From: Collinsella sp. AM17-1 | GTDB taxonomy: Bacteria > Actinomycetota > Coriobacteriia > Coriobacteriales > Coriobacteriaceae | Assembly: GCF_003470665.1 (NCBI RefSeq) | Contig: NZ_QRJZ01000006.1 | Location: forward strand, 1-64,000 | Direction of reading: 5' to 3' | Length of the DNA: 64,000 bases | Shown here: one piece after another, positions 4,163-53,372 of the stretch | How the letters are laid out: every line of letters starts with the position of its first letter | How positions within the stretch are numbered: position 1 is the first letter of the stretch | The notes under the pieces: generated by a model | What the model was told of the DNA's origin: nothing | The model's input: only the letters and a program-made list of their open reading frames with translations | Databases searched by the model: none | Made by a program: the position numbers and the translations under genes

Positions 4163-4170
4163 ACTATCTT

Positions 4171-4197: not shown

Positions 4198-4215
4198 GTT
4201 GACGCTGCGCGAGCC

Positions 4216-4401: not shown

Positions 4402-4498
4402 TTGGGGCGTGGCTGTGGCGTTGTTTGCCGCGAATGTCCGCTTTGGGCGTATCATCGTGGGCATCTCGCAAAACCTCGTTGCAAGGGAGACTCATCCC

Positions 4499-6232
4499 AT
4501 GGCTACAGAAAAGTCCTCGTCGCGCCCATGGATGTCCGATGCCGCGATCTATCAGATCTATCCGCGCTCGTTTAAGGATTCGACTGGTTCGGGTCTGGGC
4601 GATATCGCGGGCATTACCCAGCAGATGGACTATCTTGAGCGGCTGGGTATCGAGGCCATCTGGCTGAGCCCGTTTTACCCATCGCCTCTCGTCGATGGCG
4701 GCTATGATGTGGCGGACTACTGCGATGTCGACCCACGTCTCGGCTCGCTTGACGACTTCGATGACATGATCGCCGCGGCTCATGCGCACGGCATCAAGGT
4801 CATCGTCGACATCGTGCCCAACCATTCGTCCAACCAGCACCCCTGGTTCAAAGCCGCTCTTGCCGCCGGCCCCGGATCGCCCGAGCGCGCCCGTTATATC
4901 TTCCGCGATGGTCGCGGCGAGCACGGCGAGCTGCCTCCCACCAATTGGAATGCCAACTTTGGTGGCCCCGCCTGGACGCGCGTCGCGGACGGTCAGTGGT
5001 ATCTGCACATGTTTACGCCCGAGCAGCCGGACTTTGACTGGTCGTGCCCCGAGGTTCATGCGTTCTTTTGCGACGTCCTGGCGTTTTGGAGCGATCGAGG
5101 CGTCGATGGCTTTCGCATTGATGTGGCGCACGGTCTCGCCAAGGATCTCGACCGCGATGACCTCGACCGGTGGCATCTCGCCGAGGGCGATGACATGGTT
5201 GAGGACGGCACCCATCCGCTGTGGGACCGCAACGAGGTCCACGAGATCTATCGCGAGTGGCGCCGCGTGTTCGACCGCTATGATCCGCCACGCAGCGCCG
5301 TTGCCGAGGCGTGGGTGCTGCCCGAGCGCCAGTATCTCTACGCGCGTCCCAGCGAGCTTGGCCAGACATTCAACTTTGAGTTTGCCAAGGCCACTTGGAC
5401 CTATGATGACATGCATGCTGCAATCGAGGAGGGCTTGAAGGCAGCTATAGAATCCGATTCCGCCTCGACCTGGGTGCTCTCCAACCACGACGTGCCGCGC
5501 GTGGCGACGCGCTATGCCCTGCCGCAGATCAAGGCGACGCGCTACCACCAGATTGCGCTCGACTGGCTCTTACGCGACGGGTCGTCTTATGACGAGGACC
5601 GTGAACTCGGCGAGCGCCGCGCGCGGGCGGCCCTTTTGCTCGAGCTGGCGCTTCCGGGCTCGGCATACGTGTATCAGGGTGAGGAGCTCGGCCTTTTTGA
5701 GGTGGCTGACATTCCGTGGGCTGCACTCGAAGATCCTACTGCGACCAATACGCGCGGACCGAAGCGCGAGAAGGGGCGCGACGGCTGTCGTGTGCCCCTG
5801 CCGTGGGTGGCGGCGGACGATCCCGCGCAGGGCGGATCGTTTGGGTTTTCGCCGGCAGACGCCGATGCGGCGCCCCATCTGCCGCAGCCTGCATGGTTCT
5901 CCTATTATGCTGCCGATAGGGAAGAAACGGACCCGACATCGATGCTTGCGCTCTATCGTGACGCCCTCTGGCTGCGGCGCAAGCTGCGCGGGTGCGCCAA
6001 CGATCTTGCGTGGCTCGATCTTGACGGGCACACCGGTCTTGCGGATGGTGCCGAGGGCGCTGAGGGCGGCGTCATTGCCTATCGCCGCGATAACGGCTGG
6101 GCGTGTGTGACGAACTTCGGTGCAGCACCCGTGGAGCTGCCGGCGGGCAGGGTCCTGCTCACTTCATCACCGCTTGCAGACGGCAGGCTCGCGCAGGACA
6201 GCTCTGCCTGGATCATGCTCGCTGAGTTGTAG
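4499..6232 (+). CDS. GH13 alpha-glucosidase / oligo-1,6-glucosidase
   Basis: A 577-residue cytoplasmic glycoside hydrolase family 13 enzyme, probably releasing glucose from short alpha-glucosides (isomaltose or maltose type). Clan signatures: AIYQIYPRSFKD at the start of the barrel, VDIVPNHSS, the nucleophile in GFRIDVAHG (Asp near 206), the acid/base in AEAWVLPE (Glu near 270) and SNHDVPR (Asp near 329). There is no signal peptide. ATG 4499 has GGGAG at the right distance. The reading frame stays open upstream through the tRNA region, but that part is not coding. It stands alone, with no neighbouring sugar transporter. The exact linkage preference cannot be read from sequence. Confidence 0.88.
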   Translation: MATEKSSSRPWMSDAAIYQIYPRSFKDSTGSGLGDIAGITQQMDYLERLGIEAIWLSPFYPSPLVDGGYDVADYCDVDPRLGSLDDFDDMIAAAHAHGIKVIVDIVPNHSSNQHPWFKAALAAGPGSPERARYIFRDGRGEHGELPPTNWNANFGGPAWTRVADGQWYLHMFTPEQPDFDWSCPEVHAFFCDVLAFWSDRGVDGFRIDVAHGLAKDLDRDDLDRWHLAEGDDMVEDGTHPLWDRNEVHEIYREWRRVFDRYDPPRSAVAEAWVLPERQYLYARPSELGQTFNFEFAKATWTYDDMHAAIEEGLKAAIESDSASTWVLSNHDVPRVATRYALPQIKATRYHQIALDWLLRDGSSYDEDRELGERRARAALLLELALPGSAYVYQGEELGLFEVADIPWAALEDPTATNTRGPKREKGRDGCRVPLPWVAADDPAQGGSFGFSPADADAAPHLPQPAWFSYYAADREETDPTSMLALYRDALWLRRKLRGCANDLAWLDLDGHTGLADGAEGAEGGVIAYRRDNGWACVTNFGAAPVELPAGRVLLTSSPLADGRLAQDSSAWIMLAEL

Positions 6233-6314
6233 GGGCCTCTTGCGGCGAGTTTGCGTTTGCCTGCACTTTCCGTGGTGGCTGATGCCTTCTCGAGGTTCGC
6301 GAGGGCGTCGCAAA

Positions 6315-6361
6315 ACTTTTTAAAAAAAGTTCTTGCATAGGATGCGGGTATCACGTAAGAT
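6315..6361 (+). promoter_or_regulatory. tRNA-Gly/Val promoter with A/T palindrome
   Basis: ACTTTTTAAAAAAAGT (6315-6330), two bases, -35 TTGCAT (6333-6338), 17-base spacer, -10 TAAGAT (6356-6361). The tRNA starts 12 bases later. Third example of this layout in the window. Confidence 0.75.
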
Positions 6362-6373
6362 TAATCCTCGTAA

Positions 6374-6449
6374 GCGGACATGGCTCAGTTGGTAGAGCAC
6401 AACCTTGCCAAGGTTGGGGTCGCGGGTTCGAGCCCCGTTGTCCGCTCCA
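6374..6449 (+). tRNA. tRNA-Gly (GCC), copy 3
   Basis: Sequence identical to the copies at 3674 and 3900, including the encoded CCA. Confidence 0.95.
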
Positions 6450-6452
6450 TTT

Positions 6453-6527
6453 GGGCGTTTAGCTCAGGGGGATAGCGCTTCCCTGACACGGAAGAGGTCA
6501 GAAGTTCAAATCTTCTAACGCCCACCA
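6453..6527 (+). tRNA. tRNA-Val (GAC)
   Basis: Acceptor GGGCGTT pairs with AACGCCC. The anticodon stem CTTCC/GGAAG encloses loop CTGACAC, so the anticodon is GAC. Encoded CCA at 6525-6527. Three bases separate it from tRNA-Gly, so they share a transcript. Confidence 0.95.
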
Positions 6528-40312: not shown

Positions 40313-40972
40313 GTGTCTGCATTTCCGTTCGACGCCGTTATCTTTGACATGGACGGTGTCATTGTCGATACCGAGTATTACTACCTGGGCGAGACTGCCG
40401 CGTTTGCCAAGGAGCTTGGGTTGAACCTGACTCAAGAGGAGTTGAATGGGCAGGTCGGTACCTCGCATCAGTTCTTCCTGCATATGCTGGTCGATTGGTT
40501 TGAGCGTGCCGGTAAGGGGCATTTCACTGGCGAAGAAGCGTTGGCCCGTTGGGACGAGTGGGCGCATACGCGTCCGCGCGACTATCAGACTTTGATTAAC
40601 CCAGGCGCCGTGGATACGATTCGAGAGCTGCCGCGCCGTGGCGTTCGCGTGGCGCTTGCCAGCTCGTCTCCCGTGGATAGCATCGAGGAAGTGCTCAACG
40701 CGTGCGGGTTGTCGGATGCCTTTGAATATGTGGTGAGCGGCGAGCAGTTTAAGGAGAGCAAGCCCGAGCCCGATATCTACTTGCATGCACTGGACTTGCT
40801 GGGGCTGCCCGCGGACCGCTGCTGCTGCGTTGAGGATTCGGTGCCTGGCATCACTGCCGGCAAGCGAGCCGGCCTGACAGTCATTGCCAAGCGCGAGGAG
40901 CGCTTCGGCTTTAGCCAGGATGCCGCGGACAAGATCATCGACCAGCTGCCGGAGCTGCTCACGCTTTCTTAG
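40313..40972 (+). CDS. HAD-IA hydrolase (beta-phosphoglucomutase-like)
   Basis: A 219-residue HAD subfamily IA protein. Motif I AVIFDMDGVIVDTEYYY, motif II VALASSSPVDSIEEVL, motif III lysine in EQFKESKPEPDIYL and motif IV CCCVEDSVPGITAGKRAG. The cap begins LGETAAFAKELGLNLTQEEL. Could be a sugar-phosphate phosphatase or phosphomutase. GTG 40313 follows AGGGAGGG. It lies just past a terminator that also closes the previous HAD gene, suggesting limited read-through from it. Confidence 0.88.
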   Translation: MSAFPFDAVIFDMDGVIVDTEYYYLGETAAFAKELGLNLTQEELNGQVGTSHQFFLHMLVDWFERAGKGHFTGEEALARWDEWAHTRPRDYQTLINPGAVDTIRELPRRGVRVALASSSPVDSIEEVLNACGLSDAFEYVVSGEQFKESKPEPDIYLHALDLLGLPADRCCCVEDSVPGITAGKRAGLTVIAKREERFGFSQDAADKIIDQLPELLTLS

Positions 40973-41083
40973 GAGCGCGGTAGTTGCGCGTTTTTCGGGT
41001 CTGATGAGTAAATAGCCGACATTTTGGTGCGACACCTAGCATACTTTAAGCTAATGCGGGCTTAAGGACTTGTTGAATGCCCC

Positions 41084-41102
41084 TAAGTCCGTTTTAGACT
41101 TA
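41084..41102. promoter_or_regulatory. Candidate GntR operator
   Basis: TAAGTC-N7-GACTTA is a perfect 6+6 inverted repeat 20 bases before the regulator gene. Another half, AAGGACTT, occurs about 15 bases upstream. Probably an autoregulatory site. Confidence 0.45.
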
Positions 41103-41122
41103 ATTGTGCTTGGAGAGGGTAT

Positions 41123-41866
41123 ATGCCACCGACTGAAGGGCTAACTGACGGTAAAGCAGCGATACCGCTGTACCAACAGGTTATCGATATCATCAAAAAC
41201 GAAATCAACTCCGGTGCCTACAAGGCAGGCGCGCGGATACCCAACGAATTCGAATTGGCTGAGAGCTATAAAGTTGGCCGCGTTACCGTGCGACGCGCTA
41301 TTGAGGAGCTCGTCCAACAGGGCTATCTAACGAAGCGACAGGGGAAAGGCACGTTTGTCAATGCCCCCAAGCTCAAACGCAAGATTCGCCAGAAGGATGA
41401 CGTCCAGAGTTTTTCGGACGCATGCCGCGTAAACGGAATGGAACCGGGGGCGCGTGTCATTTCGAGAAAGATACTGCCGGCGGATTCCACCGAAGCACAG
41501 TTCTTTGGTGTTCCCGTTGGAACTGACTTGATCTGCGTTGAGCGCGTGCGTACTGCCGATGGCGTCCCTGTCATGCTCGAGAACAACATATATGTTTACG
41601 AGGACAACGCCTATCTATCAACGGCACCTCTATCTAACCAATCCATTTTTGAGTTCGTGCGCAACCGGACGGGCCGCACGCCCGCGTTTACCGACCCATG
41701 CACGCTTGAGATCGCGTGCGCGTCGCCCGAGGTCGCTCGGTTGTTGGCAGTTCCCGTTGGCGAACCCTTGTTTTATATGGAAGCCTTCTTTTTCGATGAA
41801 CAGCGGCGGCCGTTTATCATCGGTCGTCAGCGGATCGTTGGGTCTCGCTACGTTTTTGACATCTAG
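41123..41866 (+). CDS. GntR/HutC-family regulator with UTRA domain
   Basis: A 247-residue transcriptional regulator. The winged helix is at 15-80 (IPLYQQVIDIIKNEINSG, VGRVTVRRAIEELVQQGYL, RQGKGTFV). The UTRA effector-binding domain is at about 100-240 (MLENNIYVYEDNAYL...FIIGRQRIVGSRYVFDI). UTRA regulators respond to small sugar-phosphate-like ligands; FrlR, which controls E. coli fructoselysine genes, is of this class. It precedes the catabolic operon starting at 42085, so it is the likely local regulator. Confidence 0.9.
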   Translation: MPPTEGLTDGKAAIPLYQQVIDIIKNEINSGAYKAGARIPNEFELAESYKVGRVTVRRAIEELVQQGYLTKRQGKGTFVNAPKLKRKIRQKDDVQSFSDACRVNGMEPGARVISRKILPADSTEAQFFGVPVGTDLICVERVRTADGVPVMLENNIYVYEDNAYLSTAPLSNQSIFEFVRNRTGRTPAFTDPCTLEIACASPEVARLLAVPVGEPLFYMEAFFFDEQRRPFIIGRQRIVGSRYVFDI

Positions 41867-41883
41867 GACATTGCGAATGGAAG

Positions 41884-41909
41884 CGCCCGGTGGATCATCT
41901 CACCGGGCG
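41884..41909 (+). terminator. Hairpin after the GntR gene
   Basis: CGCCCGGTG (41884-41892) pairs with CACCGGGCG (41901-41909). The following TCTCC is not a U-tract, so termination may be weak. Confidence 0.5.
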
Positions 41910-41976
41910 TCTCCATACCGTTCACGGCGCAAACGCAACCGTTCAACCGCGTTGCGGCAATCAGTTTGAAATTATC

Positions 41977-42005
41977 TTGATGACGAGAAAAGCTGCTGGT
42001 AATCT
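41977..42005 (+). promoter_or_regulatory. Promoter of the catabolic operon
   Basis: -35 TTGATG (41977-41982), 17-base spacer, -10 TAATCT (42000-42005). It is followed by a direct repeat ATAGAACGT (42006-42014 and 42016-42024) and by the inverted repeat at 42020. Confidence 0.6.
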
Positions 42006-42019
42006 ATAGAACGTCATAG

Positions 42020-42042
42020 AACGTTTGCCTTGTGCAAACGTT
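42020..42042. promoter_or_regulatory. Candidate operator of the catabolic operon
   Basis: AACGTTTGC-CTTGT-GCAAACGTT is a perfect 9+9 inverted repeat just downstream of the promoter, where a GntR or catabolite repressor could block transcription. Confidence 0.5.
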
Positions 42043-42084
42043 GAAGCGAGATGCGATGCAGTCTCGAGTTCTTTGGAGGTATCT

Positions 42085-43548
42085 ATGTCAGATACGAAGG
42101 CGAAGAAGACAAACAGACGTTTTAAGTTCAAATTACCGCATGTCTATACGATCATGTTCTTGCTGATCGTTGTCTTTGCGGTCCTGACTTGGATCGTTCC
42201 TTCTGGTCAGTATCAGCGCAAGACGATTTCGACAGCGGCGGGCGAGCGTGAAGTCGCCGTTGCTGGAACCTATGAACAGGTCGATAAGAACTACACCGAT
42301 TCCGAAACCGGCGAGACCATCAATCTGGGCCAGGATATCTTTGCGGTCCTGCAAGCGCCTACTAAGGGCATCCAGGAGGCTGCCGACGTCGTTGCGTTCG
42401 TCTTATTGATTGGCGGATCGTTCGCAATCATCACCAAGACCAACGCTTTGAATGCCGGCATGAGCCGTGTGATTAAAAAGCTCAAGAACAAGGACATCCT
42501 CATCATCCCCATCACGATGACGTTGCTGTCCATTTGCGGCACTACGTTTGGTATGTCTGAGGAAGCCCTGCCGTTCTATGCCATCTTCATTCCCATCATG
42601 ATGGGTATCGGTTATGACTCGATGACGGCATTCATCATCTGCTTCCTTGGTCCTAACCTGGGATATTGTGCCTCGACCATCGATCCGTTTAACGTCTTGA
42701 TCGCACAGGGCATTATCGGCATCGAGGGCAATCCTCAGCTGTGGCTGCGCGCCGTTTCTTGGGTCATCTTCACTGCCGTCGGTATCGCATGGGCCATGCG
42801 CTACGCTATGCGCGTCAAGAAAAACCCCGAGTCGTCCATTACGTACGAGGACGATAAACTCAAGCGTATCGAGTTTTCCGTGACCGATGCCTCCATCGAG
42901 GAAGAGTTCACTATCCGTCAGAAGCTCGTGCTTATCGATTTTGCCTGCGGTATGGGCATTATCGTCTGGGGTCTTGTTACCCAGGGTTGGTACATGAATG
43001 AGATTTCCGCCGTGTTCCTTGGCATGGGCTTGCTTGCCGGTATCCTGGGCGGTCTTGACCAGCAGACGATTGCTGAGGAGTTCGTTAAAGGTCTCGCCGA
43101 CTTTGCGTACGCCGCTATCGTTATCGGTATCGCTCGCGGCATTCTGGTCATCGCCGAGGGCGGCATGATCATCGACACCATTCTCCAGGCGCTCGCTACT
43201 GCGCTCGCCGGTGCACCCGCCGCCGTCTACACCACGTTTATGTATATCGTCCTTGGCCTGCTCTCTTTGCTGGTTCCCTCGAGCTCTGGCCTGGCGGCGC
43301 TCACCATGCCCGTCATGGGTCCGCTGACCGAGCTTATGGGCCTCAATCCCGAGGCCGCCGTTACCGCGCTCCAGTTTGCCAATCAGACCATCAACACCAT
43401 CAGTCCCGTGGCGGGCATGACGGTTGCCGGCCTTGCCGTGGCAAAGATCTCGTTTGGCCAATGGTGGAAGACCATTTGGAAGTTCTTCATTTTCATGGTC
43501 GTCTTTGGCCTGATCGTAACGGCAATCTCTGGCATGCTTCCGGTGTAG
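42085..43548 (+). CDS. YfcC-family integral membrane transporter
   Basis: A 487-residue polytopic permease of the YfcC/ArcD-like (C4-dicarboxylate/amino-acid) family with about 12 TM segments. Seen: an N-terminal TM at YTIMFLLIVVFAVLTWIVPSGQ, the FGMSEEALPFYAIFIPIM re-entrant region and the VPSSSGLAALTMPVMGPL motif in the C-terminal half. Being first in the operon with Frl-like enzymes, it probably imports the amino-sugar conjugate. E. coli FrlA is an APC permease, so this is a non-homologous replacement. ATG 42085 has GGAGG. Confidence 0.88.
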   Translation: MSDTKAKKTNRRFKFKLPHVYTIMFLLIVVFAVLTWIVPSGQYQRKTISTAAGEREVAVAGTYEQVDKNYTDSETGETINLGQDIFAVLQAPTKGIQEAADVVAFVLLIGGSFAIITKTNALNAGMSRVIKKLKNKDILIIPITMTLLSICGTTFGMSEEALPFYAIFIPIMMGIGYDSMTAFIICFLGPNLGYCASTIDPFNVLIAQGIIGIEGNPQLWLRAVSWVIFTAVGIAWAMRYAMRVKKNPESSITYEDDKLKRIEFSVTDASIEEEFTIRQKLVLIDFACGMGIIVWGLVTQGWYMNEISAVFLGMGLLAGILGGLDQQTIAEEFVKGLADFAYAAIVIGIARGILVIAEGGMIIDTILQALATALAGAPAAVYTTFMYIVLGLLSLLVPSSSGLAALTMPVMGPLTELMGLNPEAAVTALQFANQTINTISPVAGMTVAGLAVAKISFGQWWKTIWKFFIFMVVFGLIVTAISGMLPV

Positions 43549-43557
43549 GTGGTTGTG

Positions 43558-45141
43558 ATGTCTGATCGTTTAACGGTCCTGACGTCTAAGAGCGTCTTTA
43601 CCGGTACGGGGGACCTGCCGTTTGAAGGTTTCGTAGCGGTCCGTGGCAATCGAATTGAGGCTGTTGGCACCAAGTGTGAGGTAGCTTCGTATTTGACCCA
43701 AGCGGACGAGGTAGTTGACCTGGGCGACCGCACCGTCATGCCCGGCCTGATCGATGTGCATACCTTCTATACAGGCTGGGCGCTGCGGACGTTGGGGTCT
43801 GATCTGTCCGGCATCGCCGATGCCAAAGAGGCCGTGTCGCTCTTGCGTGCATGGAAAGAAGATCATCCGGATTGTGCGGCGGCTTTTGGCCACAGCCTAC
43901 CCGAAATGTTGGCGTCGGATGCCGAGAACGCAAATACGGCAGCTGTGTTTGACGATTGTTTTGGCGATATCCCTGTCGTTTGCTTTACATCGGGTGCGGA
44001 GACCTGCGTTCTCAATGCTGCCGCCAGTGCGCGATACGGCTTTACACCGCAGGCGTGCTATGCCGAGAAGATCTGGCGCATGATGAGCGATTTCCTCGCG
44101 CTGCCCGAGGTACGTGCGGGGTATTCGGACTACATGAGCATGCTTAACGAGCGCGGCGTTACCGCCATCAAGGAGATGGCGTTTGATGACTACTACGGCT
44201 TTGCCGACGAAATGGCTCGCCGTGAGGAATCTGGTGAGCTGACGGTTCGCGTCTCTATGATGTCGCAGCCGGTGGGTGCCGGTGCAAATCTGGCATATGC
44301 CCGCGAGGCACGAGAGCGCTTCCGGGGACCGTTCGTTCGTTTTTCTGGCTTCAACCGTATGACCGATCGCGGCGTATGGGCGGGGCTTGCCGAGATGATT
44401 GATCCCTATGAGGACACGGCCGATGCGGGAGCTGCCGGCAAGACGGTTGTCGAGGAGCCCGAGTGGGATCTGATTGAGAACGAGCTGCGCGCAATTGATG
44501 CTGACGGCTTCCGATATTCCTTGCATTGCCAGGGCGATGGCGCCGTTCGTCGCACCGTGGCGCTCTATGCCTCGCTGCCTCGAGACGAGCATGGACGGTT
44601 GCTTCGCCGCCATGCGATTACCGATCTCGAGAACTCTGACCCGACCGACCTTGTCGAGTTTGGCAAGTTAGGTGGAATTTGTGAGGTCTATCCGCAGATT
44701 CTGACGCTGGACCGGCGCGAGGATTGCCTGTCGATGATGCGTCGACAAATTGGCGAGACGCGACTTTTGCACAGCTGGAATCGCCGCGGCATGGAAGATT
44801 CCGGATGCACGGTGTGCTGTGGTACGGATTTGCCGCTGCTGATTCCGAGCCTGGGCGAGTCAATCTACAGCGCGTGCGGCGGATACTTCGACGATGGGTT
44901 GCCCGTGAATGAGGCCAACGCGCTGACGCTTGTCGAGCTCTTGCGTGCTTGGACTGCCGGGGGCGCGTACGATCTGATGCGCGAAGACGAGCTGGGTACG
45001 CTTGAGGTTGGCAAGCTTGCCGATATCTGCGTGCTCGATCGGGATGTGTTCGACCTCGATTATCGCGATGCACGCGATCTTGCGGTTGATATGACGATGT
45101 CGGACGGACAAATCGTGTTCGCTCGAAACAAGGAGGCATAA
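43558..45141 (+). CDS. YtcJ-like amidohydrolase with altered metal motif
   Basis: A 527-residue protein of the amidohydrolase_3/YtcJ family. Seen: DRTVMPGLIDVHTF where the family usually has HxH, HCQGDGAVRRTVALY and RRHAITDLENSDP (later His ligands), and CCGTDLPLLIPS (the Asp). Replacement of the second His by Phe suggests altered metal binding or loss of the usual hydrolase activity. It starts ATG 43558, nine bases after the permease stop, with AGGTGG. Possible role: cleaving an acyl or peptide bond to release an Amadori compound. This is unproven. Confidence 0.8.
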   Translation: MSDRLTVLTSKSVFTGTGDLPFEGFVAVRGNRIEAVGTKCEVASYLTQADEVVDLGDRTVMPGLIDVHTFYTGWALRTLGSDLSGIADAKEAVSLLRAWKEDHPDCAAAFGHSLPEMLASDAENANTAAVFDDCFGDIPVVCFTSGAETCVLNAAASARYGFTPQACYAEKIWRMMSDFLALPEVRAGYSDYMSMLNERGVTAIKEMAFDDYYGFADEMARREESGELTVRVSMMSQPVGAGANLAYAREARERFRGPFVRFSGFNRMTDRGVWAGLAEMIDPYEDTADAGAAGKTVVEEPEWDLIENELRAIDADGFRYSLHCQGDGAVRRTVALYASLPRDEHGRLLRRHAITDLENSDPTDLVEFGKLGGICEVYPQILTLDRREDCLSMMRRQIGETRLLHSWNRRGMEDSGCTVCCGTDLPLLIPSLGESIYSACGGYFDDGLPVNEANALTLVELLRAWTAGGAYDLMREDELGTLEVGKLADICVLDRDVFDLDYRDARDLAVDMTMSDGQIVFARNKEA

Positions 45142-45142
45142 G

Positions 45143-45994
45143 ATGTCTGAATCCAAGCCGACGCTGCGTCGCGAGCAGATTGCGGGCATGAATATCCACT
45201 ACATCATGTGGTCGCTCGATTACTTCCTTGATGTGCAGCAGCGTTTGGGCTTTGAGTCCATTGAGCTGTGGTGTGCGGAGCCGCATGTGACGCTCGACCA
45301 CACGGGCTACTTTGAGGCTGAGGTTCTGGCGAAAAAGGCTGCAGACCGTGGGCTTAGGTATCGTACTCTGTGCCCCGAGAATGTTGTCTATCCTTGGCAG
45401 TACTGCGCACGCAAACCGCTGCATGAACAGCGCAGCCTGGCGTACTTTAAGCACGGCATTGAGCTTGCCGAGGTACTTGGGTGCGACCGTATGTCCGTTA
45501 ACTCGGGCTGGGGCGACTGGGACGAGGACCGCGAGGAAGCCTGGAAGCGCAGCCGCGAGCACTTGTCCATTCTGGCGGAGTATGCCGGCGAGCACGGTTT
45601 GGTGCTTACGATGGAAAGCCTGCGTCCCGAGGAGAGCAACCTTGTGACGACGGTTTCCGATGCGAAGCGCATGATTGACGAGGTTGCGAGCCCGTACTTA
45701 CAGCCCATGGTTGATACAACCGCGATGGGCGTTGCAGGCGAGACGCTCGAGGACTGGTTTGCCGCCTTTGGTGATGGGGCAATTCACGAGATGCACTTTA
45801 TCGACGGCGACCCGTATGGCCATCTGGTGTGGGGCGATGGCAAGCACGATATGGACGCCTTCGTCGCCACACTCAACGCCCATGGTTTCGACGGCATGCT
45901 GGGCCAGGAAATCACGGACGGCCGTTACTACGATGACCCGGCGGCGGCAGATGCCAAGAACATGGCCGCATTCGAGAAATATCTGATTGACTAA
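45143..45994 (+). CDS. Sugar isomerase/epimerase (FrlC-like TIM barrel)
   Basis: A 283-residue xylose-isomerase-like TIM-barrel protein. Metal-site features: the Glu in FESIELWCAEPHVTL, LTMESLRPEESN, QPMVDTTAMGVAGE, HEMHFIDGDPYGHLVWGDG and GMLGQEITDGRYYDDP. Its position beside FrlB- and FrlD-like genes suggests the FrlC role, interconverting fructoselysine and psicoselysine type epimers. RBS AAGGAGG; ATG is one base after the previous stop, so translation is coupled. Confidence 0.85.
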   Translation: MSESKPTLRREQIAGMNIHYIMWSLDYFLDVQQRLGFESIELWCAEPHVTLDHTGYFEAEVLAKKAADRGLRYRTLCPENVVYPWQYCARKPLHEQRSLAYFKHGIELAEVLGCDRMSVNSGWGDWDEDREEAWKRSREHLSILAEYAGEHGLVLTMESLRPEESNLVTTVSDAKRMIDEVASPYLQPMVDTTAMGVAGETLEDWFAAFGDGAIHEMHFIDGDPYGHLVWGDGKHDMDAFVATLNAHGFDGMLGQEITDGRYYDDPAAADAKNMAAFEKYLID

Positions 45995-46056
45995 AACAGC
46001 TATCGGCCACGCAGCCAACGTCATTGATTGCGGACCAAACAAGAAAGGAACTGGAT

Positions 46057-47025
46057 ATGAACGCACACGATCTGATCAAAGAGGCAATTGCCGAGAAGGG
46101 CAAGTTCGACAGCGTCTACTGGATTGCTTGCGGTGGCTCCATGATCGATTTGATCCCGGCTCATGAGCTTCTGCAGCGTGAGGCAACTACCTTCGCTTCG
46201 TATATCTATACCGCGCGTGAATTCGACATTATGCGTCCGCGTCGTCTGGGCGAGAAGTCCCTGGTCATTGCTTGCAGCCACAGTGGCAACACCCCCGAGG
46301 TCGTCGAGGGCTGCGAGATTGCCCTTGCCGCCGGCGCTACGGTGATCGCCCAGACCGACAACGCTGGATCTAAGATCGACACCGGTAAATGGACCACGTG
46401 GGTTTACCCGTGGGGCGAGGGCGTGCCGCAGGCCGAGGTCCCCGCTGGTATTTCGCTGTCGCTCGCGGCCGAGCTGCTCGATCAGCAGGAGGGCTACGCC
46501 GATCTTGCCGATATGTATGCCGGTATCGCCGAGATGGATAAGATTCTTCCCCCGGCACGTGAGAAGGTAAATGCTGAGCTGGGCGATCGTTTTGCCAAGC
46601 TTTGCCAGGAGCACGAGTTCTTCTATATTCTGGGCAGCGGTCCCAACTTTAGCCAGACCTACGGTTTCGCTATCTGCTCTCTTATGGAGATGCAGTGGCA
46701 GCACTGCAGCTACATCCACTCTGCCGAGTACTTCCACGGCCCCTTCGAGGCTACTCAGGACGGCGTTTTTTACTTCCTGCAGATGGGCTCCAGCGAGTGC
46801 CGTGCTATGGACGAGCGCGCCCTGGCGTTCCTTAAGACGCATACCGATACGCTGATGGTGCTCGATGCCAAGGAGTACGGTATGGAAGCCGTGCCGGCGA
46901 GCGTCCGTGCCTATCTTGACCCGGTGCTGTTCTACGCCATGAACTGCGAGCTGCGTGCTGCTCGCGGCAAGGTGTTTGATCACGATCCCGATTTCCGTCG
47001 CTATATGGGTGTTGTCGAGTACTAG
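46057..47025 (+). CDS. SIS-domain fructosamine-6-phosphate deglycase (FrlB-like)
   Basis: A 322-residue protein with two SIS domains. YWIACGGSMIDLIPAHEL and IACSHSGNTPEVVEGCEIAL form the first sugar-phosphate site; FYILGSGPNFSQTYGFAICSLMEMQWQHCSYIHSAEYFHGPFE forms the second with the conserved Glu/His. This matches FrlB, which splits fructoselysine-6-phosphate to lysine and glucose-6-phosphate, and related GlmS-like deglycases. ATG 46057 has AAAGGA. It is followed 14 bases later by a PfkB kinase, the FrlB-FrlD order. The amine part of the substrate is unknown. Confidence 0.85.
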   Translation: MNAHDLIKEAIAEKGKFDSVYWIACGGSMIDLIPAHELLQREATTFASYIYTAREFDIMRPRRLGEKSLVIACSHSGNTPEVVEGCEIALAAGATVIAQTDNAGSKIDTGKWTTWVYPWGEGVPQAEVPAGISLSLAAELLDQQEGYADLADMYAGIAEMDKILPPAREKVNAELGDRFAKLCQEHEFFYILGSGPNFSQTYGFAICSLMEMQWQHCSYIHSAEYFHGPFEATQDGVFYFLQMGSSECRAMDERALAFLKTHTDTLMVLDAKEYGMEAVPASVRAYLDPVLFYAMNCELRAARGKVFDHDPDFRRYMGVVEY

Positions 47026-47039
47026 AAGGGGCAAAGGCC

Positions 47040-47903
47040 ATGGCATTTAACGTTAACGCGCTCGGATTTGGCGACAACGTCGTCGATCGCTACGAGCATA
47101 TCCACACCATGTATCCCGGTGGCAATGCGGTGAACTTCGCCGTTTATGCCAAGAAATGCGGTGCCGCACGCTCTGCATACATGGGCATTTTTGGCAATGA
47201 CGCCGCTGCCGAGCATGTCATTGCAAGTCTCGAGGATGAGGGTATTGAGCTTGACAAGTGCGAGCAGATGATTGGCGAGAACGGAGCGGCTCGCGTGACC
47301 GTCGTTGACGGTGACCGTGTCTTCCTCGGCTCCAACGAGGGCGGTATCCGTGGCGATGCGCGCTATGTCCTCGATCGCTTTGACCTTTCGTACATGAAGC
47401 AGTTCGATGTGGTTCATTCGGGCAACTATTGCTTTACCGAGCGCGAGCTGCCCAAGTTGAAGGCTGCGGGCGTCACGGTCTCTTTTGACTTTTCGGACGA
47501 CTCCACCGACGAGTACTACGAGCAGATTGCGCTCTACGTCGATTTCGCTTTCTTTAGTGCGGCGGATGCCGCAAGTGAGGACGAGATTCGCGAGCGTCTG
47601 GCATGGGTGAAGGGCCTGGGTCCGCGTTTTGTGTCGGCTACGGCGGGCGCCGAGGGCTGCATTGCTTACGACGGCGAGCGTTATTACCGCCAGCTGGCTA
47701 AACCGGTAACGGACATGAAGGACACCATGGGAGCGGGCGACTCGTTCCTCACCTCGTTTTTGATGTGCTATCTCGATTCCGCCAAGCGCGGTGAGGACGG
47801 CGCCGAGGCCATCGAGCGCGCGCTCGACTTTGCTGCCGGGTTTGCCTCGACCGTGTGCGGCATGGAAGGATCTTGGGGCCACGGAGCACCAATCGTCGAA
47901 TAG
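47040..47903 (+). CDS. PfkB kinase (FrlD-like fructosamine 6-kinase)
   Basis: A 287-residue PfkB/ribokinase-family kinase. It starts MAFNVNALGFGDNVVDRY, with MYPGGNAVNFAVYAKKCG (substrate side) and the catalytic anion-hole motif DTMGAGDSFLTSFL near the C-terminus. The short form and neighbourhood match FrlD, which phosphorylates fructoselysine at C6. A second, different PfkB kinase is encoded just downstream. Specificity cannot be read from sequence. Confidence 0.85.
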   Translation: MAFNVNALGFGDNVVDRYEHIHTMYPGGNAVNFAVYAKKCGAARSAYMGIFGNDAAAEHVIASLEDEGIELDKCEQMIGENGAARVTVVDGDRVFLGSNEGGIRGDARYVLDRFDLSYMKQFDVVHSGNYCFTERELPKLKAAGVTVSFDFSDDSTDEYYEQIALYVDFAFFSAADAASEDEIRERLAWVKGLGPRFVSATAGAEGCIAYDGERYYRQLAKPVTDMKDTMGAGDSFLTSFLMCYLDSAKRGEDGAEAIERALDFAAGFASTVCGMEGSWGHGAPIVE

Positions 47904-47973
47904 CTTAAGAAAGCGTACGGCGGTCTGGCTATGAGGCCTTGGACAGCCGATGCAAAACAATAAGCGAAACGCG

Positions 47974-48007
47974 AAAAGGGGGCTCGCCATGTGGTGGGTC
48001 CCCTTTT
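47974..48007 (+). terminator. Intra-operon hairpin between the two kinases
   Basis: AAAAGGGG (47974-47981) pairs with CCCCTTTT (48000-48007), extended by imperfect CTCGCCA/GTGGGT pairs. It ends 18 bases before the next start codon and could attenuate the distal genes. Confidence 0.55.
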
Positions 48008-48024
48008 GAACATTGGAGAAGACC

Positions 48025-48825
48025 ATGGGTATTAAAGCGTGCGCGGCTGGTTTTTGCTGTGCGGACGTCTATCAAAACATCGGCGTGTTCTATCCGACTG
48101 GCAATGGCATTGACTGGGGTATCCATCTTGCACGAATGGGCGTTTCGGTATCCGCCGTGTCGGTTGTCGGCAAGGACGAGTACGGAGACAAGATGAGGGA
48201 GGCGTTGGCCGCCGAGGGGTTCGATATCTCACATCTGCGGGTGGAGGATGGCGACACCTCGGTGATGCTCATGGCGTTGAAAGACGGCGTCGATCGCGTA
48301 CATCTCGAGGCAATCGATGGCGTAATGGAGACATATCGACCGAATGAAGATGACCGGGCGTTTATCCTAGAACATGACATCATTCACACCGACCTGTTTG
48401 GCAATTGTTTGGACCTCCTGCCCGAATGGCATGATGCGGGCAAGACGGTGGTTATGGACTTCTCGGTGTTCAGCCAGGATCCCGAATATGCCTGCGAGGC
48501 TCATTTTCCTTACGTAGACTATGCGTTCATGTCATTTGAAGAGGACACTCCGGAGCTGCGTGATTGGGTACGTCACGTACAGGAGTTGGGACCGCGGGCG
48601 GCAGTTGCCACGCTTGGCGAGAAGGGAAGCATTGCCTATGACGGTGAGCGCTTCTATGAGTGCGGGATCGTACCGGCGGAGAAGGTCGTTAATACCGTGG
48701 GTGCCGGCGACTCGTATATTGCCGGGTTTACCAAGGGCGTGATCGATGGCCTTGATATTCCGGCGTGCATGAAGGCGGGCGCTGAGCTGTCGTCCCGAGT
48801 GATTGGTTCGTTTGAGCCGTACTAG
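48025..48825 (+). CDS. Second PfkB-family kinase
   Basis: A 266-residue PfkB/ribokinase-family protein, divergent from the kinase at 47040. It has GNGIDWGIHLARMGVSVSAV at the substrate site and the catalytic motif NTVGAGDSYIAGFTKG. The Asp of GAGD is intact. Having two PfkB kinases in one operon suggests two phosphorylatable substrates, for example different Amadori compounds or the epimer. RBS TGGAGAAG; a hairpin precedes it. Confidence 0.85.
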   Translation: MGIKACAAGFCCADVYQNIGVFYPTGNGIDWGIHLARMGVSVSAVSVVGKDEYGDKMREALAAEGFDISHLRVEDGDTSVMLMALKDGVDRVHLEAIDGVMETYRPNEDDRAFILEHDIIHTDLFGNCLDLLPEWHDAGKTVVMDFSVFSQDPEYACEAHFPYVDYAFMSFEEDTPELRDWVRHVQELGPRAAVATLGEKGSIAYDGERFYECGIVPAEKVVNTVGAGDSYIAGFTKGVIDGLDIPACMKAGAELSSRVIGSFEPY

Positions 48826-48852
48826 GGTCAAACGCCTGGAAAGGAGTACGAA

Positions 48853-49713
48853 ATGGTTATCGACATGTTGGTTCAGCCCATGCTCTACAGCGAGATCTGT
48901 ACGCCGGGTGATGAGCCTGATGGATTCGGTTTTTGGTCACGAGAATTTGGTATGGGGCATATGGGCCCCATGGATTGGGATGAGCTTCAAGTCGAGATGG
49001 ACGTCTGCGATGTGCAGAAGAGTGTGCTCATGCCACTCGATGTAACCACGGCATGCGGAGGGCATTTTGGCACCAATGACCAGATCGCCATGCTGGTTGC
49101 CGCGCATCCCGATCGTCTGTGGGGATTTGCGAGCGTAGATCCGCAGGTGAGCGGCGCCGCAGGCGAATTGGAGCGCGCCTTTACCGAGTTGGGGGCAAAG
49201 GGGCTTTGCCTGCATCCGGCAAAGCAGGGTTTTGCCCCCGATGATGCCGTGGCCGAGCCGCTTTACGAGCTGTGCGAGCGCTATAACAAGCCGGTGGTTT
49301 TCCATGCCGGTATGTCTTGGGAGCCGGGTGCAGAGCTCTCGCGCAGTAACCCGCTTGCATTTGAGCACACAATCGCAACGCATCCAAATGTGCGTTTTAG
49401 TTTGACCCACTTTGGCTGGCCCTGGGTGCGCGAGACCGTGGCGATGCTGCTCAAGTATCCCAACTGCTACACGGACACCTCTATCACTTACATCGATTCG
49501 CCCGAGGAGATGATGCAGCGTCTTTTCACGGTCGATATGGGGCCGCTGTGGTATGAGCGCGCGCTATCGCATCAAGTGATGTTCGCCAGCAATACGCCGC
49601 GCTTCCGTGCGTTCAAACTCAAGCGGGCGCTCGATACCGTGTCCATGCGCGATGATGCGCGAGAAAGGCTCTACTGGGGTAATGCCCTGCGTTTTCTTGA
49701 AGGGGATGAGTGA
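48853..49713 (+). CDS. Amidohydrolase_2-like TIM-barrel protein lacking the HxH motif
   Basis: A 286-residue protein with the amidohydrolase_2 fold: GFASVDPQVSGAAGELERAF, KGLCLHPAKQGF, VVFHAGMSWEPG and VRFSLTHFGWPWV. The family begins with D-x-H-x-H, but here the start reads VIDMLVQPML, and the late Asp (GSD) is ASN (MFASNTPRF). So most metal ligands are missing, suggesting a non-hydrolytic or differently active protein. RBS AAGGAG. It lies between the second kinase and the YjbQ-like gene. Confidence 0.78.
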   Translation: MVIDMLVQPMLYSEICTPGDEPDGFGFWSREFGMGHMGPMDWDELQVEMDVCDVQKSVLMPLDVTTACGGHFGTNDQIAMLVAAHPDRLWGFASVDPQVSGAAGELERAFTELGAKGLCLHPAKQGFAPDDAVAEPLYELCERYNKPVVFHAGMSWEPGAELSRSNPLAFEHTIATHPNVRFSLTHFGWPWVRETVAMLLKYPNCYTDTSITYIDSPEEMMQRLFTVDMGPLWYERALSHQVMFASNTPRFRAFKLKRALDTVSMRDDARERLYWGNALRFLEGDE

Positions 49714-49715
49714 AC

Positions 49716-50144
49716 ATGGTGACGCTCGAGACGTTGAACTATCTATCGACTGCTCCGGACCAGTTCATCGATATTACCGAAGACGTGCACGCTGCCATCG
49801 AGCGCAGCTCGGTGACCAATGGCTTGGCAGCGATTATTTTGTCGCATACGACCTGCGGAATCGTGGTAAACGAGGGGCTGCCCTGCGTGGAGACGGATCT
49901 TATGGAGACGCTTGATCGCATCGCCCCACTCGATGCCCCCTATGCACATGCACACTTCCTGCCGAGCTATGGAGCTACCGGCAACAACTCCTGTGGACAT
50001 ATCAAGAGCATGATTTGTGGAAACAGTTGCTTCTTTCCCGTCCAAGATGGCCACATCGTGTGCGGAGGTGCCCAGAACATCTATCTTGCGGAGTTTGACG
50101 GCCCGCAGAAGCGAAAAGTGTACGTCGAGGTGCTGGGGGAGTAA
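49716..50144 (+). CDS. YjbQ/UPF0047 family protein
   Basis: A 142-residue protein of the UPF0047 (YjbQ, TIGR00149) family: IILSHTTCGIVVNEG, HFLPSYGATGNNSCGHIKSM, and the C-terminal GGAQNIYLAEFDGPQKRKVYVEV typical of these beta-barrel proteins. Thiamine-phosphate synthase side activity has been reported for some members, but the true function is unclear. It starts two bases after the previous stop. Presence in a sugar operon next to BtpA/SgcQ and an FGGY kinase hints at sugar-phosphate chemistry. Confidence 0.85.
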   Translation: MVTLETLNYLSTAPDQFIDITEDVHAAIERSSVTNGLAAIILSHTTCGIVVNEGLPCVETDLMETLDRIAPLDAPYAHAHFLPSYGATGNNSCGHIKSMICGNSCFFPVQDGHIVCGGAQNIYLAEFDGPQKRKVYVEVLGE

Positions 50145-50177
50145 CGTCCCTGCAATAACCCTATGAAGGAGCACGTT

Positions 50178-50987
50178 ATGTCGTTTCTGACCTCGATGTT
50201 CAAGACCGAAAAGCCGGTTATCGGAATGCTGCACCTGCGTCCTCTGCCGGGCGATCCACTGTATTACCCGGGCGGAAGCGTGTCGCAGGTCGTGGAAGCC
50301 GCCAAGCGCGATCTCGAAGCGTTGCAGCAGGGCGGTGTCGATGGCATTTTGATTACCAATGAGCTCTCGATGCCCTATGAGCAGCACGTTTCTCCCTCAA
50401 CCCTTGCATCGATGGGCTATGTAATCGGGGCTCTGTCCCATGATTTGTCGACCCCTTGGGGAGCTGAGGCTATTTACGATGGTGATGCCACAATCGAGCT
50501 GTGCGCTGCCGTCGATGCGCAGTTCACGCGCTGCAATTTTTGCGGTGCCTGGGCCGGTGATCTCGGGCTGATTAACCGAGATTTCGCGCACACCATGCGT
50601 CGTAAGGCGGCGCTGCGCCTGGACGACCTCAAGCTTTTTCACTTCATCACGAGCGAGGGAGAGGTTTATCTCAACGACCGCACGACTGCGGACATTGCCG
50701 ATTCACTTCTCTTTAATTGCCTACCGGATGCGATGGTCATCGGTGGTTCGGCTGCCGGTCGTGGCGCTTCGGGCGAGCTTGCCGATGAGGTCCGCGAGCG
50801 TGTTGACGAAGTGCCTGTGGTATGTGGCACCGGTTGTCGCGAAAATTCCGTGGCTGACGTATTTGCTCACTACGATGGCGCGTTTGTCGGCACGTGCTTA
50901 AAGCGCGACGGAAAGCTGGATGCCCCGGTTGATGTTGAGCGGGTAGTTTGTTTTATGGCTGCCGCTCGTGCGGCGCGAGGGGAGTAG
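50178..50987 (+). CDS. BtpA/SgcQ family TIM-barrel protein
   Basis: A 269-residue BtpA-family protein: KPVIGMLHLRPLPGDPLY at the N-terminus, QQGGVDGILITNELSMPY, and DAMVIGGSAAGRGASGE then VPVVCGTGCRENSVADVF. In E. coli, SgcQ of this family is encoded in a sugar PTS operon. BtpA was first linked to photosystem I in cyanobacteria. The enzymatic reaction is unknown. ATG 50178 has GAAGGAG; six bases separate it from the FGGY kinase gene. Confidence 0.87.
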   Translation: MSFLTSMFKTEKPVIGMLHLRPLPGDPLYYPGGSVSQVVEAAKRDLEALQQGGVDGILITNELSMPYEQHVSPSTLASMGYVIGALSHDLSTPWGAEAIYDGDATIELCAAVDAQFTRCNFCGAWAGDLGLINRDFAHTMRRKAALRLDDLKLFHFITSEGEVYLNDRTTADIADSLLFNCLPDAMVIGGSAAGRGASGELADEVRERVDEVPVVCGTGCRENSVADVFAHYDGAFVGTCLKRDGKLDAPVDVERVVCFMAAARAARGE

Positions 50988-50993
50988 GCGCCT

Positions 50994-52511
50994 ATGGCGT
51001 TCTATCTGGGTATTGATATTGGGACAAGCGCCTCTAAAGGCGTTTTAATCGATGATCGATGCAGCATCGTTTGCCAGGCCTCTTGTGGACACGAGACAGA
51101 CAACCCGCGTGATGGATGGTACCAGCATGATGCGGAGGCAGTTTGGTGGGGCGATTTTTGCCGCTTGTCGCGCGAGCTGGTGGTGCGATCGGGGGTTAAC
51201 GCGGCGCAGATTGGATGCGTGGGCCTTTCCGCATTGGGTTGCGACTGCGTGCCGGTCGATACCGAGTGCAACGCGCTGGCGCCCGCGATTTTATATGGAG
51301 TCGATGCACGTTCGAAGCCGCAGATTGACGAGCTTCTTTCCGAATATGGGTCAGATCGCGCACGCGAGCTTTTCGGGCACGATCCCTGTTCGTCAGATAT
51401 TGCTCCCAAGATCTTGTGGTTTAAGGAGAATATGCCCGAGGTGCACGAACGTGCCGCGAAGTTCCTGACGGCGTCATCGTTTCTGTGCGCGAAGTTGACG
51501 GGGCGTTTTACGGTGGACCGTTATTTGGCGGAGGATTTTCTTCCCCTATACGATCGCTACACTTGGAAGGTTGATGCTCGGGAATGTGCTCGTTTCTGCC
51601 GGCCTGACCAGATGGCGGAGGTAATGTCGGCTACCGATATTGCCGGGGTGATTACGCTGCGTGCGGCTGAGGCGACGGGGCTCGCGGCAGGGACACCTGT
51701 CTTGGTGGGAACGGGCGACTCTGGTGCCGAGGCCATTTCGACGGGTGTATTCCGTCCCGGCGATATGATGGTTCAGTTGGGGAGCACGGCGTATTTCATC
51801 TACTTAGCTGATCATATGGTCGATGATGCTCGCCTGTGGCCAGGGACGTTTATCATTCCCGGAACTTACGGGATCTGCGCGGGGACCAATACAGCGGGTG
51901 CACTCACATCGTGGTTGCGCCAAGAGCTGTATCGCGACGCCGTAGAGGCCGAGGGCCACGGTGGCCCCGATGCGTATTCGGTTATGGCGCATGATGCCGC
52001 CGATGTGGCGCCGGGTGCCGATGGGCTCCTGTGTCTGCCGTACTTTGCGGGGGAGCGTACTCCGCTCAACGATACCGAGGCGCGTGGCGTCTTCTTTGGC
52101 CTGACCGGAAGGCATACGCGAGCCCATATGGTTCGCGCCGCCTTGGAAGGCGTCGCGTATACCGTTGCATCCCATGTCGACATTATCGAGCGAGAGCATG
52201 GACTGCCAATTGGGCGCATTATGCTTGTCGGAGGTGGAACCAAGAATCCAGTTTGGATGCAAGCTATCGCCGACGTATGCGGGCGCGAGGTCTCGGTTGC
52301 CAAGGTTACGGTGGGCGCATGCTTCGGTGATGCCATCATGGCAGCTCTCGCAGGTGGCGCCTATGCATCATGGGATGAACTCGCCCAAGTCCTTGGCGTT
52401 GCGCAAACAATCGTGCCCGATATGGCTGCCCACGAGTTATATGCGTCGCGCCGCCATATCTTTGACGAATTGTATGCACGCAACCGTGATCTCATGCATG
52501 AATTGGTGTAA
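50994..52511 (+). CDS. FGGY-family carbohydrate kinase (xylulokinase-like)
   Basis: A 505-residue sugar kinase. The N-terminal ATPase motif is FYLGIDIGTSASKGVLID. The second half has GTGDSGAEAISTGVFRPGDMMVQLGSTAYF and the FGGY signature region RIMLVGGGTKNPVWMQAIADVCG. Closest in layout to xylulokinases, but the substrate is unknown. Last gene of the operon. Together with BtpA and YjbQ it may process a sugar released from a second branch of the pathway. Confidence 0.88.
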   Translation: MAFYLGIDIGTSASKGVLIDDRCSIVCQASCGHETDNPRDGWYQHDAEAVWWGDFCRLSRELVVRSGVNAAQIGCVGLSALGCDCVPVDTECNALAPAILYGVDARSKPQIDELLSEYGSDRARELFGHDPCSSDIAPKILWFKENMPEVHERAAKFLTASSFLCAKLTGRFTVDRYLAEDFLPLYDRYTWKVDARECARFCRPDQMAEVMSATDIAGVITLRAAEATGLAAGTPVLVGTGDSGAEAISTGVFRPGDMMVQLGSTAYFIYLADHMVDDARLWPGTFIIPGTYGICAGTNTAGALTSWLRQELYRDAVEAEGHGGPDAYSVMAHDAADVAPGADGLLCLPYFAGERTPLNDTEARGVFFGLTGRHTRAHMVRAALEGVAYTVASHVDIIEREHGLPIGRIMLVGGGTKNPVWMQAIADVCGREVSVAKVTVGACFGDAIMAALAGGAYASWDELAQVLGVAQTIVPDMAAHELYASRRHIFDELYARNRDLMHELV

Positions 52512-52564
52512 TGCTGCCGAATTGTACTGTCTTTCAATAGGGACTGCGTTGTGCGATTCGCATG

Positions 52565-52589
52565 CCCCTTGGCATTTTTGCCACAGGGG
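52565..52589. terminator. Hairpin at the operon end
   Basis: CCCCT-T-GGCA pairs with TGCC-AC-AGGGG (52565-52589), between the convergent FGGY kinase and TatD genes. No clear U-tract. Confidence 0.45.
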
Positions 52590-53372
52590 TTAGCGAAGGT
52601 CAAAAACAGAGTGCGCATTTGCTAAAACTGCCGACTCGATGCGCTTTGCATCACAGTTTTTGAGTGAGGCAATGCGCATCGAGGTCCTTGTGAGCGATGT
52701 GATGAGCGACTGCGCGCTTGTTTCCGTGTTTGGCTCGGCCGGCGCATCGGTCTCGAGCAGTAGACGGTCGAGTGGAATCTGTCGGGCATATTCGCGTCCT
52801 CGTTTAGATGCGAGCATACGCTCGTTCACGGAGAAATAGCAGCCTGCGTTTCGCGCGCGGACGAGTTCGTCCGAAGTACCGCTAAACCAGTGGAAGATGA
52901 TAGCGGGGGAGTCGGGGTTTGGGATGAGTAGTCCATGCGATTCGAGGACGTCCAGTGCGGCTCTTGCTGAACGAACGGCGTGAATTGATATCACGCGCCC
53001 GGCAAGAGGATGCTGCACGAGTGTATCGCAGAGCCGGTCAAATGCCTGTATTTGAAGTGGTTCGCTTCCGGCAAAGCGCGCGGAAAAGTCGAGTCCCACC
53101 TCGCCGATATAGTGCTCGTGGGCAGCAACTTCGCAAAGCAGATTGACTTCGGCAGGACCGCAGCGGCCGTCGGCGAGCCACCAGGGATGGAGGCCGATAC
53201 CCTTGATGACGGTAGGAGGGCGACGGGTTCGCCCATGTGCGCTAGCGAAGTCGCGTGGATCGACGCCGCAATCAAATAGACCCAAGCCCAGCGCCGTTGC
53301 CTCATCGGCAACGGCGTCCGGGTGAGCCATTAAATCAAGATGGCAGTGTGCATCAAATAACCGGGGCTCCAT
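52590..53372 (-). CDS. TatD-family metal-dependent hydrolase
   Basis: A 260-residue TatD/YcfH-type metallo-hydrolase (putative DNase). Motifs: RLFDAHCHLDLMAHPDAV (HxH metal site), IGEVGLDFSARF, HAVRSARAALDVLE, IIFHWFSGTSDEL, and LLLETDAPAEPN (Asp). It follows tcdA on the same strand with a 14-base gap and is likely cotranscribed. The biological substrate is uncertain. Confidence 0.9.
   Translation of the reverse strand: MEPRLFDAHCHLDLMAHPDAVADEATALGLGLFDCGVDPRDFASAHGRTRRPPTVIKGIGLHPWWLADGRCGPAEVNLLCEVAAHEHYIGEVGLDFSARFAGSEPLQIQAFDRLCDTLVQHPLAGRVISIHAVRSARAALDVLESHGLLIPNPDSPAIIFHWFSGTSDELVRARNAGCYFSVNERMLASKRGREYARQIPLDRLLLETDAPAEPNTETSAQSLITSLTRTSMRIASLKNCDAKRIESAVLANAHSVFDLR

Follow-up and report, generated by a model that had tools for sequence, protein, structure and literature searches.

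What does the run of genes at 41123–52511 of the Collinsella sp. AM17-1 window break down, and does it work as one operon? The window is the whole 64,000-nucleotide stretch analysed (contig NZ_QRJZ01000006.1), and the locus consists of 11 intact reading frames, all on the + strand. The first-pass annotation had read it as one enlarged operon for the catabolism of Amadori compounds, which form in heated food and reach the colon, and for which few bacterial removal pathways have been worked out. We consider that the locus probably serves the use of ketosamines (Amadori compounds and their sugar epimers) as nutrients through two modules, six genes forming module A (41123–47903) and five forming module B (48025–52511). 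The catabolic assignment is supported by the grouping of its SIS protein with deglycases and by FrlD, FrlB and FrlC as best models, while the single operon gives way to two separable modules.

The SIS protein and its module A partners

The best NCBIfam model of the SIS protein is FrlB, at 108.6 bits (next model, 29). The score misses the E. coli-type equivalog cut-off of 430, making the protein a relative of FrlB and not FrlB itself; NagB-II and GlmS models match weakly (25–28 bits) and the identity to E. coli K-12 FrlB is 29% (blastp). Of the two SIS domains claimed earlier, Pfam scores the N-terminal one (residues 41–108), and the second is assigned by homology, because the FrlB model aligns over residues 3–321. 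The nearest solved relatives are 3eua (192 bits), 9otj (187) and 3fkj (164.5). The entry title of 3eua is fructose-aminoacid-6-phosphate deglycase, and we take its source to be B. subtilis FrlB; 3fkj is presumably the Salmonella gfr-locus protein acting on lysine adducts. In a FastTree phylogeny of 96 sequences rooted on GlmS (some near-identical or duplicate records; translated segments with stops or below 250 residues and hits below 60 bits left out), the window protein sits with these three, that is with known deglycases and not with non-deglycase families, and E. coli FrlB, AgaS and GlmS fall outside. The node splitting the window and 2a3n sides from E. coli FrlB has a support of 0.97; the joining nodes are weak (0.59 for the window branch with 3eua, and 0.43). 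Both residues that we take to be catalytic, the MEMQW Glu and the FHG His, are present in 96/96 aligned proteins, GlmS and AgaS among them, so that they are necessary but not sufficient; PDB chain 9otu, a Glu-to-Ala variant, supports the catalytic role of the Glu. The sequence comparisons thus support the window protein as a relative of the FrlB/FraB-type ketosamine-6-phosphate deglycases.

Because the window protein lies apart from E. coli FrlB in the tree, nothing marks ε-fructoselysine as its particular substrate. The B. subtilis enzymes prefer α-glycated amino acids (PMC12632257). The tree was dropped as a test of α- versus ε-glycated substrates, as the branch of the window protein holds 3fkj as well as B. 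subtilis FrlB.

Genomes of the genus (L021–L039; G008, G024, G026, G006, G032, G009 and others; L numbers denote retrieved loci and G numbers genomes) have as many as ten matches to SIS (E 0.001, counting GlmS and split matches). Several paralog classes can be told apart, a GntR gene is often close by, and the paralog in L027 (Collinsella) adjoins mannose-family phosphotransferase system (PTS) genes.

The other module A proteins are also relatives of named families. By blastp, the regulator shares 28% identity with E. coli FrlR and the epimerase 27% with E. coli FrlC, its best NCBIfam model (95 bits, cut-off 305). PfkB1, 35% identical to E. coli FrlD, reaches 181.4 bits with the FrlD model and misses the cut-off of 247. 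The permease is best modelled by YfcC (328 bits, cut-off 500); its Pfam family, together with the lack of any blastp match to E. coli K-12 FrlA at E 0.001, bears out the earlier statement that it is non-homologous to FrlA. In AHS3, H71 and F73 are kept in 38/38 aligned sequences; its 13 PDB matches are all weak and partial, and no asparaginase-family match was found among the eleven proteins with Pfam or NCBIfam.

All eleven genes named in the first-pass annotation were found, with families supported by Pfam and NCBIfam. The first ten proteins each score above the Pfam gathering threshold (for the FGGY protein, the scan used NCBIfam alone), and NCBIfam cut-offs are passed only by PfkB2, YjbQ and BtpA. 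The gene set is not a chance assembly, because it is found again in the genus, in Enorma and, in rearranged form, in Bacillota, and because dN/dS against Enorma is 0.06–0.25 for ten genes, values that are rough since dS exceeds 1 throughout, and undefined for FGGY. In Collinsella aerofaciens (L041), 10/11 proteins are 97–100% identical, the regulator falling outside the contig.

Table 1. Features of the locus in the Collinsella sp. AM17-1 window
Feature	Place	Position	Strand	Details
GntR/UTRA regulator	module A	41123..41866	+	247 aa; PF00392 + PF07702
Operator-like direct repeat	5' of permease gene	42007..42026	+	sole copy in window at ≤3 mismatches
DcuC/YfcC-family permease	module A	42085..43548	+	487 aa; PF03606, 371 bits
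AHS3, Amidohydro_3 protein	module A	43549..45141	+	PF07969; HxF replaces HxH
FrlC-like sugar epimerase	module A	45143..45994	+	283 aa; PF01261; fructoselysine 3-epimerase model below cut-off
SIS ketosamine-6-phosphate deglycase-like protein	module A	46057..47025	+	322 aa; likely start ATG 46057
PfkB1 sugar kinase	module A	47040..47903	+	287 aa; PF00294; FrlD model below cut-off
15-pair GC-rich hairpin	between modules A and B	47974..48007	+	fold energy in text
PfkB2, FrlD-type kinase	module B	48025..48825	+	266 aa; likely start ATG 48025, alternative TTG 48013
AHS2, Amidohydro_2 protein	module B	48853..49713	+	degenerate metal site: LxQ for HxH, Asn at beta-8
YjbQ/UPF0047	module B	49710..50144	+	144 aa from GTG 49710 (4-nt overlap with AHS2); 142 aa from 49716
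BtpA/SgcQ TIM-barrel protein	module B	50163..50987	+	274 aa; PF03437, TIGR00259
FGGY kinase, XylB-like	module B	50994..52511	+	505 aa; XylB model below cut-off

Two separable modules

The locus is flanked by two HAD-type genes upstream and by TatD- and ThiF-type genes downstream on the opposite strand. At this site, module A stands alone in four genomes of the genus (G003, G012, G019, G029), whose assemblies gave no match to AHS2 or BtpA at E 0.001, and three genomes (G008, G024, G015) hold the complete A and B. Both modules are present in G062 from the permease onward, where the contig begins; in G007 they lie on two contigs, AHS2 being cut at the contig ends with one stop in the match; in G027 (assembly 72% complete) the contig breaks off just after AHS2 begins, with module A and PfkB2 before it, and a search of this assembly found no BtpA. 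Among the 43 genus genomes searched for each protein, AHS2 of the window family occurs in seven (59–98% identity, two partial; a G030 match is at 27%) and BtpA in six (74–98%), with three more BtpA matches at 26–31%. G020 carries module A, its permease match in two pieces, together with BtpA and a broken FGGY gene, and has no PfkB2, AHS2 or YjbQ. The genus also has another copy of module A (L024, L030, L134; SIS identity 83–84%), which ends in an apparent PfkB2 stub (23 residues, 70% identity, E 1e-5). Module A can stand alone. Module B was probably ancestral and probably lost at least twice, since Enorma keeps A and B in the gene order of the window and the genus contains A-only sites and the stub.

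In G032 (L036:14218–14964), permease (89 aa) and PfkB1 (144 aa) fragments lie between the same HAD and TatD/ThiF neighbours, apparently as a decayed copy of the locus. The upstream HAD genes were rejected as operon members, as they flank the site even there. Where module B is missing at two A-only sites (L127:11519–11803 and L124:5584–5868), a 285-bp segment of almost the same sequence contains a pair of inverted repeats some 30 bp long and resembles a small mobile element. L126 carries a related version at 86% and L125 parts only, and none was found in the window.

The modules are separated by a 109-nt gap between PfkB1 and PfkB2 with a fold energy of -49.9 kcal/mol (z -5.7; 0/200 shuffles as stable). 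The hairpin sequence is kept in L026, L132 and L133, and by eye Enorma L042 has a different GC-rich inverted repeat in the same gap. The terminator scan did not call the hairpin on the + strand, where no T run lies 3' of the stem, and promoter and terminator scans gave no excess over shuffles (5 vs 6.7 and 13 vs 12.1); it is the fold energy that supports the hairpin. Because this hairpin lies between the kinase genes and the part 3' of it is missing from some strains, the evidence does not show the one enlarged operon proposed earlier.

The direct repeat upstream of the permease gene recurs with 0–2 mismatches in L021, L026, L127 and Enorma L042, a recurrence that is not independent because the pattern itself derives from aligned sequences of this kind; it may be an operator-like element. 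The HutC-type operator GTnTAnAC was rejected, its two + strand matches in 40901–52700 being both intragenic.

Beyond the locus, the TatD-type gene at 52590–53372, adjacent to the ThiF-type gene, reaches 183 bits with the QatD anti-phage nuclease model (cut-off 230) and is likely an ordinary TatD relative. Three equal-scoring tRNA-Gly(GCC) genes, with tRNA-Cys and tRNA-Val nearby, lie in the window at 3674–6527.

The PfkB2-AHS2-YjbQ core of module B

Scanning 84,980 species genomes with AHS2 returned 155 relatives; the counts below come from the best 80 loci. These loci are AHS2-selected, many are truncated by contig ends and related strains are non-independent; L041/G062, L051/G035 and L074/G007 contig 5 look like the same records, so that locus and genus counts overlap. 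PfkB2 here means a best hit to the window PfkB2 of at least 50 bits, down to 35–40% identity. The loci come mostly from Coriobacteriia and Bacillota (Paenibacillus, Hungatella, Gemmiger, Anaerotignum, Enorma and others), a few being labelled just bacterium or actinobacterium. YjbQ directly follows AHS2 in 78/82 AHS2 genes; three of the four exceptions lie at contig ends, and the fourth overlaps with a different reading frame. PfkB2 is immediately 5' of AHS2 in 52/82. The 80 loci contain a PfkB2-like kinase in 75 cases, the epimerase in 61, SIS in 55, GntR in 48, PfkB1 in 44, AHS3 in 41, BtpA in 28, YfcC in 27 and FGGY in 25. For the 48 loci flanked by 8 kb at both ends, counting hits of 50 bits without best-hit exclusivity gives YjbQ in 48, SIS in 39, the epimerase in 38, AHS3 in 27, YfcC in 18, and BtpA and FGGY in 16 each (the L109 FGGY only 27% identical); the PfkB1 and PfkB2 counts of this set were left unused, as the kinases cross-match each other.

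The partners of the core vary, as found by scanning neighbour families on one member per cluster. Transporters include YfcC, sugar and amino-acid ATP-binding cassette (ABC) systems, an amino-acid permease, BCCT, MFS and the Na+/H+-antiporter family. Hydantoinase/oxoprolinase A and B genes lie beside the core in L082, L083, L093 and L114, in Paenibacillus and a Lachnospiraceae genome, a hint of lactam- or hydantoin-type aglycones; L081 has a class III aminotransferase and an aldehyde dehydrogenase there. Further neighbours are an esterase, a GDSL hydrolase, an M20 peptidase, a transaldolase and a GatZ-like protein, and in L109 a GatZ/KbaZ-like gene precedes AHS2. Since the core is constant while transport and amine-handling genes change, its neighbourhoods suggest that it acts on the sugar side.

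PfkB2 passes the FrlD equivalog cut-off of 247 with 263.6 bits and is 33% identical to E. coli FrlD. AHS2 (PF04909) has no NCBIfam model match, and its fold is closest to an uncharacterised barrel and to decarboxylases. It lacks the HxH metal motif and the beta-8 Asp, having LxQ and Asn247 in the window. In its alignment, the first His of HxH is present in 71/79 and the second in 76/79 sequences with letters there, and column 247 is Asn in 75/83, Asp in 7/83 and Thr in 1/83. A role as an ordinary metal-dependent amide hydrolase is improbable for AHS2.

YjbQ (PF01894) passes TIGR00149 with 103.8 bits (cut-off 67.75). E. coli Php is, we presume, an amidohydrolase-superfamily protein. It and E. 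coli YjbQ (UPF0047) are multicopy suppressors of pdxB, the available text of PMC7954711 stating the function of YjbQ as unknown; the shared phenotype hints at action on sugar-phosphate-like compounds. BtpA passes the BtpA/SgcQ model TIGR00259 (187 bits, cut-off 153.4) and misses the photosystem I BtpA model (132 bits, cut-off 400). Fold comparison makes it a phosphate-binding-type TIM barrel, among which no family was prominent, TrpF isomerases and KDPG-type aldolases included, and the reading as a TrpF-like Amadori isomerase from its fold was dropped; its sequence gave three chance matches only in the PDB (E 0.64–0.84). The FGGY kinase misses the XylB model TIGR01312 (272.7 bits, cut-off 380.25) and matches 3ifr and 2itm in the PDB.

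Candidate pathways and known systems

The data show gene identities, conservation, linkage and modularity, whereas the substrates, the order and direction of the steps, and all the chemistry of module B are our inference. The permease would import a ketosamine, and AHS3 may hydrolyse an amide or lactam bond in its amino-acid part, as the asparaginase FraE does in fra. The FrlC-like enzyme would epimerise psicose-type to fructose-type ketosamines, PfkB1 would phosphorylate O-6, and the SIS protein would release glucose-6-phosphate and an amino compound, under the presumed control of the GntR/UTRA protein. Module B may be an accessory branch for compounds that module A cannot finish or that the SIS protein handles poorly: PfkB2 would phosphorylate a related ketosamine, AHS2 and YjbQ could act on the phosphorylated intermediate in a lyase, hydratase or isomerase type of step, and FGGY may phosphorylate a ketose from such compounds, whose product BtpA would then cleave or epimerise. 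A more specific version, which we hold to be unlikely, joins a SIS-independent breakdown of ketosamine phosphates by PfkB2-AHS2-YjbQ to a branch for pentose-derived ketosamines, where FGGY would phosphorylate a pentulosamine and BtpA would reverse the Amadori step or cleave the product. If true, the SIS-independent route would give the widespread orphan family YjbQ/UPF0047 a metabolic role.

One alternative is an E. coli-type fructoselysine operon that serves only ε-fructoselysine and psicoselysine, the extra genes being passengers or redundant copies. It would account for FrlC, FrlB and FrlD as best models of the epimerase, the SIS protein and both kinases and for the FrlR-like regulator, and infant metagenome bins have yielded frlD-type genes for several genera, Collinsella being one of those named (PMC9749803). 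Yet FrlA is missing, the SIS protein is remote from E. coli FrlB and groups with the α-preferring B. subtilis FrlB branch (PMC12632257), and PfkB2-AHS2-YjbQ is linked across many genera under purifying selection, which leaves this explanation doubtful. Another alternative is an amino-sugar or N-acyl-amino-sugar pathway, with AHS3 as a deacylase, kinases for phosphorylation and the SIS protein as an AgaS- or NagB-II-like deaminase/isomerase. SIS and amidohydrolase folds are common to such pathways, the L027 paralog beside PTS genes and the GatZ/KbaZ-like gene of L109 point the same way, as do the weak NagB-II and GlmS matches, but AgaS and GlmS lie outside in the SIS tree, FrlB outscores every other model of the SIS protein by far and FrlD is best for both kinases; we think it distinctly improbable.

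A single linear pathway through all eleven products, starting from a conjugate cleaved before deglycation, had been one option of the first-pass annotation. The one strand, the mostly short gaps and the identical order in Enorma fit it. It is nonetheless very improbable, because strains keep module A without module B, four genomes doing so at this very site, while many loci with the PfkB2-AHS2-YjbQ triad have neither BtpA nor FGGY nearby and a stable hairpin separates the modules. We retain the two-module ketosamine system as the preferred reading, and the natural A-only and A+B strains make the role of the cassette directly testable by growth comparison.

Fructoselysine use by Collinsella intestinalis was reportedly the subject of a 2019 study in Cell Host Microbe. 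As the first-pass annotation had supposed, no description of this gene set turned up in the open-access literature, nor did any link of YjbQ or BtpA to ketosamine loci or any paper combining the two. Mannose-PTS operons, Salmonella gfr and the gfr-like ones of Faecalibacterium, share ketosamine use and deglycases with the locus and vary by strain, as module B does here; they differ in coupling uptake to phosphorylation through the PTS, in place of permease and kinase, and in the available part of PMC12136445 they do not have the window gene set. The B. subtilis frlBONMD-frlP system shares the kinase FrlD and a SIS deglycase of the same branch (3eua), but has an ABC importer where the window has a permease, and the available text of PMC12632257 names no epimerase, amidohydrolase, YjbQ, BtpA or FGGY. 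E. coli YjbQ belongs to the same family as the window protein, the pdxB suppression that it shares with Php carrying no ketosamine link in the part of PMC7954711 at hand.

The proposed parallel with E. coli FrlR-A-C-B-D holds for the regulator, epimerase, deglycase and kinase, homologous at 27–35% identity. It fails for the permease and for the SIS protein, which lies outside the E. coli FrlB branch, and AHS3 and module B are not in the annotated E. coli operon. The Salmonella fra locus for fructose-asparagine, with FraA, FraB, FraD and FraE, is an equally good model, because the window has a DcuC-family permease and a hydrolase: both loci have a GntR-type regulator, a Dcu-family transporter, a sugar kinase, a SIS deglycase and a hydrolase for the amino part, but fra has an asparaginase (FraE) where the window has the amidohydrolase-fold AHS3 and, in the available part of PMC4072780, no FrlC-like epimerase; module B is extra in the window. 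The plan of module A is thus closest to Salmonella fra plus frlC; among the known kinase-deglycase loci it is a fra/frl-like variant, set apart by its permease and its amidohydrolase. More may come of module B, a detachable cassette present across Bacillota and Coriobacteriia: through it, YjbQ/UPF0047 and BtpA/SgcQ, both of them families without a known function, are tied to ketosamine loci.

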